A DNA stretch of 64,000 nt from Humidesulfovibrio mexicanus (GTDB taxonomy: Bacteria > Desulfobacterota > Desulfovibrionia > Desulfovibrionales > Desulfovibrionaceae). The number at the start of each line of letters is the position of its first letter. The first letter of the stretch is position 1. Below are positions 17,698 to 20,202 of the stretch, one piece after another. The stretch covers positions 99,537 through 163,536 of the forward strand of contig NZ_FZOC01000004.1 of assembly GCF_900188225.1 (NCBI RefSeq). Direction: 5' to 3'. The translations under genes and the position numbers were made by a program. Below the pieces are notes generated by a model. The model searched no databases, was not told the DNA's origin, and was given only the letters and a program-made list of their open reading frames with translations.

Positions 17698-17820
17698 CTA
17701 CTGCACCACATCACTCCCCATCTCGATATCCCACACGGCCACGTTGTCGCCTGAGCCCTCAGCCAGCGTGACGGAAAAGGCCGGGTCGGCCTGGGGCTCC
17801 GTGGGCAGCAGGCCCAGGCT
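17698..17820 (-). pseudogene. Diverged duplicate of the hflX 3' end
   Basis: Read on the complement, this stretch encodes GLLPTEPQADPAFS, then a short variable segment, then VAVWDIEMGSDVVQ and a stop. The true hflX tail at 18448 reads GLLPTESQTDPAFS, a longer variable segment, and the same VAVWDIEMGSDVVQ with stop. The copy has no start codon or upstream domain, so it is a remnant. It ends 3 bases from the stop of the RelA/SpoT-type gene and abuts the papain-like gene. Confidence 0.85.
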
Positions 17821-17826
17821 GCCCCC

Positions 17827-18417
17827 CTACCCCGCCAACCGGACCACAAACGCCTCGCCCTCCACAAGCGCATACGCCCGCTCCGGGCAGAGGGCGTCAT
17901 TGGACCAGCGCCCGGACTCCGGGTGCCAGGTCTCCGCGTAGCGGCAGGGCGAGCCGTTACACGCCCGCTGGTGCCGCACGGAGCAGGCCACGGCCAGGCG
18001 TTCGCGCGCGCCGTCGTACGCCACCGCGCACACCCAGTGGTCCATGCTGTCCGCGAACTGTGAGCTGCCCTGATAGCGCAGGATGACCACGCTCGCCGCA
18101 TCAAGCAGCGCGCCCAGCGCAGCGGCCGTCATCGGGCCGGGGATGCGGCTGACGAGGAAGCGCCCGCCCTGAAGCAGGGCCAACATGCGCTCCATGTTGT
18201 CCTGCAGCAGCGCGTGGTTCTGGTCAAAGCCGCCGGTGGTGCCCACCGAGGCGTTGAGGAAGTCCGCCGGGTGGTCCACCTGGCAGAAGGCCGCACACAC
18301 GCGCTCGAACTCCGGGGGCTGCCCGCACAGGGCCGCATGGGCGTTGACGATGCTGTAGAGAAAGCAGGCCCCGTCCAGGTCGCCCTGGGCGAAAATGCGT
18401 CGTTTGGCGTCCGGCAT
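17827..18417 (-). CDS. Putative papain-like cysteine-protease-fold protein
   Basis: I do not recognise a named family. The 196-residue product has AQGDLDGACFLYSIVNA at about residues 10-26, which resembles the Gln...Cys-aromatic helix start of papain-fold enzymes, and DHWVCAVAYD near residue 125, which could give the catalytic His; a Trp/His/Asn-containing segment follows. No signal peptide or membrane helix is seen, so it should be cytoplasmic. It starts 31 bases past the hflX stop and probably shares its transcript. Base composition is like the host. Catalytic activity is inferred only. Confidence 0.55.
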   Translation of the reverse strand: MPDAKRRIFAQGDLDGACFLYSIVNAHAALCGQPPEFERVCAAFCQVDHPADFLNASVGTTGGFDQNHALLQDNMERMLALLQGGRFLVSRIPGPMTAAALGALLDAASVVILRYQGSSQFADSMDHWVCAVAYDGARERLAVACSVRHQRACNGSPCRYAETWHPESGRWSNDALCPERAYALVEGEAFVVRLAG

Positions 18418-18447
18418 CGGCAGCGTCCCCGCGTTTTGGGCCAGCGC

Positions 18448-20202
18448 CTACTGCACCACGTCGCTGCCCATTTCGATGTCCCATACGGCCACGTCCTCGT
18501 CCGGGTCCGCGTCCGAATCGGCGGCGGGCACGGCGGAAAAGGCCGGGTCGGTCTGCGACTCCGTGGGCAGCAAGCCCAAAATGGCCGCCACCAGCGGGGT
18601 AAGGCCCTGGCGCTTGAGGGCCGTCACAGGAATGCCCGAGGGGTACACCCGGCGCATGACCTCCTGCTGGTCCGGGGAAAGCAGCTCCCACTTGTTCAGC
18701 GCCAGCAGGCGCGGCGTCTCGGCCAAGTTCATCTCGGTGAGGATGCTCTCCACGGCGCCGATCTGCTCCTCGGCCTCGGGGTGGGAGATGTCGGCCACAT
18801 GCACCAGCACGTCGGCCGACTCCAGTTCCTCCAGGGTGGCGCGGAAGGCCTCCTGCAAGTCCGGCGGCAGGCGGCGGATGAAGCCCACGGTGTCGGTCAG
18901 AATGACCTCGCGCTCGCGCGGGAAGCGGATGCGGCGGCTTGTGGGGTCGAGCGTTGCGAAGAGCTTGTTCTCGGCCAGCACGCGGCTTCCGGTGAGGGTG
19001 TTCAGCAGGGTGGACTTGCCCGCGTTGGTGTAGCCCACAAGGGCGATGACCGGGCAGCCCGCCTTTGCGCGGCGGTCGCGGGTGCCGCTGCGGTGGCGGC
19101 GCACGCTCTCCAGCTCCTTGCGCACCTTGGTGATGCGCTCGCGCACCCTGCGGCGGTCGATCTCAAGCTTTGTCTCGCCCGGCCCGCGGCCGCCGATGCC
19201 GCCCATGAGCCGCGACATGGCGGGCGTTTTGCCCACCAGCCTGGGCAGCGTGTACTTGAGCTGCGCCAGTTCCACCTGCAGCTTTCCGGCCCGGCTGGTG
19301 GCCCGGCGGGCAAAGATGTCCAGAATGAGCTGGGTGCGGTCCAACACGCGGCGTTCGGTGGCTTCCGCCAGGTTGCGCAACTGCGAGGGCGAAAGGTCCT
19401 GGTCGAAAATGACGATCTGCGCGCCGGTTTGCAGGCACAGGACTTCGAGCTCCTGCAATTTTCCCTTGCCCAAAATGTGCCGGGCATCGGCCTTGTCCAC
19501 CCTTTGGATCATGCGGGCCGGGCAGGCCAGCCCGGCGGTGCGCGCCAGCTCGGCCAGCTCGTCCAGGCTGCGCTCCTGCACAATGCGCGGGGCGCCGGAC
19601 ACGCTCACAAGCAGCGCGCGCTCGCGGCCCTTGTCCGCTGCCACGGCGCGCTCCTGGCGGCCGAACTCGTCCTCCAGGGCCTGCACCAGGGCGGCGAAAT
19701 CCACCTCGGAGCGGTCCCAGCGCACGGAGGGCAGCACGTCGTATGGCTTGGCGTCCGGTCCGGAGAGCTCGGAAACCGGCACCACGTGGGCCACGTGCAG
19801 GCGTTCCGGCCCGCCGAATTCGTCCACGGTGAGGGCGGCCACGGAGTCGAGCCTGAGCGCCACCATGTCCATCAAGTCTTCCTGCGAGAGGGCCTCGCCG
19901 GAGAGGTGGGTGTGCAACAGGCGCAGGCCGCGCAGGCGCGTTTCGCCCAGGCGCGCGCGGGGCAGCTCCGGGATGAGGATGCGGTCCGGCTCGCCCACGA
20001 TGAGCATGTCCACACGGCCCTGCCGGTCGATGAGCAGGCCGATCTGGCGGCCCACATCGCGCGAGAGGATGGCCAGCTCACGGGCCTGGTCGGTGGTGTA
20101 GCCGCCACCCGAAGGCGGAAACCTTCGGGTGGCGAGGCGGGAAAGCCGTTGGATCTGGCCGGGCTTGAGGCCCTGGACGTTGCCTTGCGGTTTCTGGGCG
20201 AT
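18448..20202 (-). CDS. hflX: GTPase HflX, probable AUC start
   Basis: The 584-residue product is a ribosome-associated GTPase that splits stalled or hibernating ribosomes. The N-terminal half is the HflX domain; GGRGPGETKLE and the coiled linker lead into the G domain with GYTNAGKST near residue 390, DPTSRR, DTVGFIRRLPP and NKWE. The first in-frame ATG/GTG codon, at 20055, would cut off conserved sequence (KPQGNVQGLKPGQI and LAILSRDVGRQIG). Homologues start where an ATC stands at 20202, and GAGGGG lies 7 bases before it. There is a 13-base-pair inverted repeat in the early coding region. A papain-like gene follows. Confidence 0.85.
   Translation of the reverse strand: MAQKPQGNVQGLKPGQIQRLSRLATRRFPPSGGGYTTDQARELAILSRDVGRQIGLLIDRQGRVDMLIVGEPDRILIPELPRARLGETRLRGLRLLHTHLSGEALSQEDLMDMVALRLDSVAALTVDEFGGPERLHVAHVVPVSELSGPDAKPYDVLPSVRWDRSEVDFAALVQALEDEFGRQERAVAADKGRERALLVSVSGAPRIVQERSLDELAELARTAGLACPARMIQRVDKADARHILGKGKLQELEVLCLQTGAQIVIFDQDLSPSQLRNLAEATERRVLDRTQLILDIFARRATSRAGKLQVELAQLKYTLPRLVGKTPAMSRLMGGIGGRGPGETKLEIDRRRVRERITKVRKELESVRRHRSGTRDRRAKAGCPVIALVGYTNAGKSTLLNTLTGSRVLAENKLFATLDPTSRRIRFPREREVILTDTVGFIRRLPPDLQEAFRATLEELESADVLVHVADISHPEAEEQIGAVESILTEMNLAETPRLLALNKWELLSPDQQEVMRRVYPSGIPVTALKRQGLTPLVAAILGLLPTESQTDPAFSAVPAADSDADPDEDVAVWDIEMGSDVVQ
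20103..20134 (-). repeat. Inverted repeat in the early hflX coding sequence
   Basis: CGCCACCCGAAGG at 20103-20115 is followed by CCTTCGGGTGGCG at 20122-20134, a perfect 13-base-pair stem with a 6-base loop. It lies about 70 bases downstream of the proposed AUC start and codes for a non-conserved loop of the protein, so an mRNA role is possible. Confidence 0.6.

Follow-up and report, generated by a model that had tools for sequence, protein, structure and literature searches.

A second, diverged hflX 3' end behind a papain-like gene, interpreted as stacked cargo at a hotspot beside a core gene

Where prophage 21 or the element e14 resides in icd, the element brings an alternative 3' end for the host gene, and the original end is displaced to the far side. 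In integron cassette arrays new cargo is placed in front and old cargo is pushed back, with a repeated sequence between the cargos. How small accessory genes that lack mobility genes reach fixed chromosomal places is an open question, and displaced tails of core genes are fossils of such entries. The sections of Kirchberger and others (2017; PMC5361080) used here ascribe T6SS effector-immunity arrays to a process akin to homology-facilitated illegitimate recombination, cite the same scheme for Rhs loci, where orphan 3' ends occur in strings, and name integron cassette arrays as a parallel. Below we describe a displaced tail of hflX; with a second case in a related genome, it marks where two joins took place, in a hotspot with several defence-candidate genes among its cargo.

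The window is the whole 64,000-nt stretch of DNA that was analysed. Its genome, G000, was compared with 14 congeners, giving 15 genomes of the genus in all. Along the hflX strand the order is hflX, 30 nt, the papain-like gene, 9 nt, an outer copy of the hflX tail, 3 nt, a RelA/SpoT gene, and plsY. The features, in window coordinates, are as follows.

18448..20055, minus strand: hflX, encoding GTPase HflX (NCBIfam TIGR03156, GTP_HflX, E 4.6e-135)
18448..18579, minus strand: inner (functional) hflX tail, 132 nt with the stop (sequence comparison)
17827..18417, minus strand: predicted papain-like cysteine-peptidase gene, 196 aa (AlphaFold2, Foldseek, VIA-align, alignment)
17818..17826, minus strand: joint from the papain stop to the outer tail, 9 nt, a non-homologous junction (sequence; papain 3' contexts in relatives)
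17698..17817, minus strand: outer hflX tail copy (orphan 3' end), 120 nt with the stop (blastn, tblastn)
16639..17694, plus strand: RelA/SpoT-domain gene, convergent (Pfam PF04607, E 3.9e-17; PADLOC PDLC04999, E 6.5e-15)
15987..16592, plus strand: plsY, the other border of the cargo hotspot (PF02660, E 7.1e-48)

The papain-like gene is 70% GC; the RelA/SpoT gene is 45% GC, computed over the longer reading 16543-17694, and its protein scored 63 bits on PF04607 (cut-off 27). No tRNA that might serve as an attractor was found in window positions 8000-30000.

HflX scored 450 bits on TIGR03156 (cut-off 216.75), and the match stopped at residue 492. Codons 493-535 make up a fast-changing C-terminal tail of the genus that was missing or different in most of the 20 relatives from outside the genus included in the C-terminal alignment. 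Up to the tail hflX is conserved throughout the genus, and plsY is likewise conserved. The original prediction was that the last 40 or so hflX codons recur, diverged, at 17698-17820. That recurrence was borne out, with the start placed about 3 nt too far: the outer copy begins with CTGGGCC, the equivalent of codon 493, at 17817 and continues in frame to a stop at 17700-17698, its translation being LGLLPTEPQADPAFSVTLAEGSGDNVAVWDIEMGSDVVQ followed by the stop. Translation also confirmed that the stop (TAG) and the last 14 residues are identical to those of hflX, and the papain-like gene does lie between the two copies on the hflX strand. The convergent RelA_SpoT gene just beyond the stop of the outer copy had gone unmentioned. 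Inner and outer copies are 73% identical over 131 columns (blastn, E 4e-19) and 67% identical over 43 residues (tblastn). When the outer copy was searched against the 15 genomes, the strong matches among those listed were hflX ends, and the best listed match other than an hflX end was 32 nt long, with E 3.6e-4. The E value of the repeat, together with the restriction of strong matches to hflX ends among those listed, rules out a chance repeat.

A self-repeat scan of 1.56 Mb covered hflX-centred loci with overlaps, papain-bearing loci and the window, the redundant L001-L030 and L131-L140 being left out. It returned four matches, all from two known cases, namely one from the window and three from overlapping stretches or records of G010, which is described below. 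A control scan of another 1.2 Mb of G000, about 34% of the genome in 60 stretches of 20 kb each, gave five raw matches, none of them on inspection an orphan gene end; three proved to be dispersed or short intergenic repeats, one was a shared zinc-ribbon end, and one was an internal coding similarity. A general tendency to duplicate gene ends was rejected on the outcome of these two scans. The duplication of the hflX tail is real and is found twice in the genus.

The shared zinc-ribbon end lies in L191 (G000:C3:380001-400000), where a 69-nt coding end is present in two neighbouring genes on the minus strand (6348-6416 and 6738-6806, 98.6% identical), possibly a recently copied C-terminal domain. 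In L172 and L183 (G000:C3), intergenic repeats of the form CCAGGGGC...GCCCCTGG, with GGCCGCCGGAGGCAT, were seen at several places, partly side by side.

The protein encoded between the tails had no match in Pfam or NCBIfam, and a sequence search of solved structures gave two matches only (E 0.21 and 1.2), which were not used. Foldseek with its AlphaFold2 model (pLDDT 85) found staphopain (1pxv, the best match, E 3.0e-4, TM about 0.43), phytochelatin synthase and C39 peptidases, at modest TM values of 0.4-0.5; VIA-align of the model to papain-fold enzymes gave Z of about 10, and up to 10.5. Residues Q11, C18, H127, N173 and D174 are invariant in nine papain-like sequences, the window's included, and we take Q11, C18, H127 and N173/D174 to have catalytic roles. 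The structure prediction and the invariant Q, C, H and N/D bear out the papain-like identity that had been proposed, and support a predicted papain-like cysteine peptidase of clan CA. Fold, as predicted, and invariant residues are held in common with staphopain, C39 peptidases and phytochelatin synthase; unlike these, the window protein lacks a Pfam or NCBIfam match and, in the order sample, is confined to the genus. In that sample 8 of 297 genomes carried the gene, all of this genus (G006 was not among the matches there), and within the genus there were nine carriers among the 15 genomes, counting the window. No relatives were found in viral contigs or plasmids. The gene is directly behind hflX in G000, G001 and G006 and away from hflX in the six other carriers (G002, G004, G005, G008, G010 and G013), a distribution that points to a single move, or a few, into the place behind hflX. 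It adjoins what we take to be an SbmA/BacA-like transporter gene in G002, G005, G008, G010 and G013, and a presumed GH5-like gene in G002, G004, G008, G010 and G013; one or both of these neighbourhoods may be its older home. The G006 gene (L147:13564-14262) has in-frame insertions with a PDALPDALPDAL-type repeat, which its relatives do not have.

Cargo at the hflX-plsY gap was surveyed in the 14 genomes, window included, in which hflX is followed by plsY within one contig; G007, arranged differently, was left out. Intervening genes were present in 14 of 14, usually different ones. The cargo of this convergent gap consists of one to three small genes, mostly AT-richer, some of which match defence-candidate or toxin-antitoxin families. 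The original prediction had proposed a search for empty sites with a single hflX tail, and plsY directly after hflX was found in none of the 14. RelA_SpoT cargo is found in the window and in G005 (39.6% identical) and DUF6119 in G006 and G010; there is a CAP12-type TIR in G001, a TIR- or nucleoside-deoxyribosyltransferase-like protein, below cut-offs, in G009 and G011, a protein kinase in G003, DUF4747 in G008, NYN in G014, HicB with a below-cut-off HicA in G012, a C_GCAxxG_C_C protein in G013, and a toxin-antitoxin-like pair in G010 (the antitoxin with an HTH_3 domain, the toxin without a family), while the cargo of G002 and G004 had no family assignment. The recurrence of RelA_SpoT and of DUF6119 is expected if flanking homology brings cargo to the same place. 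Three of ten cargo proteins matched PADLOC models: the window RelA (defence-candidate model PDC-S33), the G001 TIR (PDC-S35) and the G003 kinase (mads_6, PD-T4-6), the last match perhaps reflecting the kinase domain only. One more, from G002, was marginal (E 0.001), and six, the papain-like protein included, had no match. Pfam found no recombinase family among 22 intervening-gene proteins (very short ORFs, such as a 55-codon frame of G010, were left out), and the inserts of 0.75-1.1 kb held no recognised mobility gene. The hflX-plsY gap is a genus-wide swap site for small, often phage-defence-like genes.

The second displaced tail is in G010, where the order is hflX, tail, toxin/antitoxin-like pair, tail, DUF6119 gene, plsY. 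Its two tails are 94.6% identical over 129 columns, and it is a case independent of the window's, behind different cargo. No second tail was found in the other 12 congeners with hflX-plsY, in G007, or in 71 loci outside the genus; among these 80 loci (nine of them from congeners), some of which are short downstream or have masked or broken frames so that misses are possible, the G010 record alone had one. The start of the shared sequence in G010 is offset by about 10 nt from that in the window, and in both genomes the outer copy starts 5-9 nt past a stop codon. By our own arithmetic, over a range of our own choosing and for two cases only, a random pair of positions along the 1.6-kb gene would be that close about 1% of the time. 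At the tail start (hflX codons 491-498) there is an inverted repeat in 13 of the 15 genomes despite varying codons, in the form GGGC-N4/5-GCCC in 12 and CGGC/GCCG in one (G001). Genome by genome the hairpin gave P values from 0.03 to 0.94, individually not unusual; jointly it was reached in 0 of 2000 resamplings, a result that assumes independent genomes and that we do not trust. In G010 a 55-codon frame (ORF 2596-2763 of the oriented stretch, L032) ends 5 nt before the displaced tail, perhaps as the last part of a cargo gene that has decayed.

Over 117 sites the outer tail differs from the tail of the sister genome, G014, at 13, the inner tail differs from it at 19, and inner and outer differ from each other at 25; each of the two differs from those of G001 and G006 at 41-43. 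Since the copies are more diverged from each other than either is from the single tail of G014, they appear to be allelic rather than duplicated in place, which argues against a recent self-duplication and suggests that two lineages of the same clade were joined. G000, G014, G001 and G006 do form one clade (100/99 in an eight-genome core tree, 94/97 in the hflX body tree). The original prediction had the papain-like gene entering with its own hflX tail, from a foreign but related donor, and pushing the original tail outward. In keeping with this, the outer tail is nearer to that of G014, by a small margin, and equal to it in length, the inner tail being four codons longer than the outer. Against it, G001 and G006 have the papain-like gene directly behind hflX with a single tail. 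The prediction also proposed asking which tail fits the hflX phylogeny, and the nearness of the outer tail to G014 (13 versus 19 of 117) is not decisive, nor are third-position differences over 39 codons (9 versus 11) decisive for polarity. dS to G014 was 0.337 for the outer tail, 0.665 for the inner tail and 0.353 for the hflX body; the first lies close to the last and so leans towards the predicted order, though the tail values come from 39 codons only. The related donor agrees with the 25 differences between the tails, but the inner tail does not look foreign, since relative to other genomes it is no farther from G014 than is the hflX body (ratios 0.41 and 0.64). No change point of ancestry was found in hflX (permutation p 0.535), the tails being too short to decide.

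Papain and core dS were 0.485 and 0.47 for G000-G006, 0.78 and 0.514 for G000-G001, and 1.07 and 0.485 for G001-G006; because the pairs with G001 exceed the core, the papain-like gene is not clock-like. The papain DNA tree put G000 with G006 (97/94), and the papain protein tree left the group unresolved; the core DNA tree put G006 with G001 (85/99), and the core protein tree G000 with G006 (85/90). The hflX body tree joined G001 and G006 at only 81/82. Because the papain and core trees, DNA and protein, disagree, none was used for polarity. The single-tail papain loci of G001 and G006, the clade of four genomes and the core-like G000-G006 dS suggest that the papain-like gene may be resident and the outer tail with the RelA gene the newcomer. 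With the tail ratio of 0.41 and all the papain dS values taken into account, we now regard the two orders of events, and thus which half is the newcomer, as about evenly balanced, having earlier leaned slightly towards the predicted order.

The reading we prefer, and to which we incline a little more than we doubt it, is that two hflX-end haplotypes of the same clade, hflX-tail-papain and tail-RelA gene-plsY, were joined by recombination at the swap site, with homology on one side and an illegitimate joint on the other. We infer that incoming DNA would pair by homology on one side, at the hflX body or at plsY; the other side would be joined without homology, the end of the papain gene being fused to the start of an hflX tail, and the old tail would stay behind with its cargo as a stack. 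Because a complete 3' end comes with the piece that is attached to it, hflX would stay intact. In either order of events a single homologous exchange would be needed, along with a single joint without homology, from the end of papain to the start of a tail. An extended homology anchor on one side is present (hflX up to the tail, and plsY). The non-homologous joint is seen in G000 and not at the other two hflX-adjacent papain loci, and inspection by eye for microhomology there showed only a brief G-rich likeness to the 3' flank of the G001 papain gene. Several observations count against this joining scheme. Random illegitimate joins do not predict copy starts about 10 nt apart in two cases, and in G010 loss of homology does not explain the start point, since the tails there are 95% identical. 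That no ancestry switch was detected in hflX and that the inner tail does not look foreign also speak against it. The 3' half of G000 plsY is not G014-like (73-79% identity), and this weighs against the version in which DNA of a G014-like donor paired at plsY. Displaced-tail cases known are two only, G000 and G010.

The nearness of the two start points speaks for the main rival, site-specific integration near hflX codon 495, although on balance we think it unlikely. An element with an integrase would have supplied an alternative 3' end and displaced the original, the inner tail being attL and the outer tail attR, and the integrase would since have been lost or would act in trans. The starts of the G000 and G010 copies lie near the point where hflX of the genus leaves the shorter ends of most relatives, both outer copies begin within 5-9 nt of a preceding stop codon, and in G000 the outer tail is nearer the sister's. 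Also in its favour are the inverted repeat at the start, individually not unusual in the 13 genomes that have it, and an alternative in-frame 3' end and a displaced end that issue from a common core, albeit one not exactly identical between G000 and G010. What such integration lacks is a recombinase among the 22 proteins scanned, a mobility gene recognised in inserts of 0.75-1.1 kb, further comparable tail copies among the matches listed from the 15 genomes, and a match in viral contigs to the exact degenerate tail-end pattern. A more general form, that the hflX 3' end is a re-usable attachment site at which recombination around codon 495, at the small inverted repeat, stacks units of a tail plus one or two genes before older ones, so that a core gene would supply its own tail as the repeat for a cassette array that has no resident integrase, strikes us as improbable.

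If instead the papain-like gene had entered the common ancestor of G000, G014, G001 and G006 and left two tails there, G000 would retain the original state, G014 would have lost the papain-like gene by tail-tail recombination, and G001 and G006 would have lost the outer tail as the outer cargo was replaced. In the papain DNA tree the genes of the three loci next to hflX cluster (86/91), the four genomes are a clade, and the dS between the outer tail and G014 is close to that of the hflX body. But two or three losses are needed, the protein tree does not resolve the papain group, and both tails are much nearer G014 than G001 or G006, so that the tail split looks younger than that ancestor; we regard such an ancestral double tail as quite unlikely. 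Tandem duplication of the hflX end within one genome, with the papain-like gene inserted between the copies and the unused copy diverging, formally fits G010, where the copies are 94.6% identical. For G000 it is disfavoured by the greater difference between the copies than from G014, by the open frame of the outer copy and the length it shares with G014, and by the lack of an orphan end among the five raw control matches, and we consider it very improbable. If further genomes turn out to have their joins at the same point, it becomes possible to test for a trans-acting route of recombination into hflX; if their joins are scattered, the locus is a record of cargo stacked by imperfect homologous exchange.

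An alternative 3' end and a displaced end are found here as with phage 21 and e14 in icd, but among the scanned cargo proteins no integrase or phage gene was recognised, and the insert is under 1.2 kb. Integron cassette arrays are alike in cargo order and in the repeat between cargos; they differ in that no cassette integrase was found among the scanned cargo proteins here, and what repeats is the end of a gene, of which just 2 of the 15 genomes were found to have a second copy. The T6SS and Rhs arrays, as presented in the sections used of Kirchberger and others (PMC5361080), are alike in having a conserved anchor, a new module in front, an old part displaced downstream, no known integrase, and relatives with a single module. 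Compared with the arrays in those sections (PMC5361080), what serves as anchor here is the gene of a core GTPase and not a toxin locus, no function is known for the 120-nt remnant that was displaced, and some of the cargo genes are defence-like or toxin-antitoxin-like and have no relation to hflX. In sum, stacked cargo at a hotspot beside a core gene is the best reading of the locus.
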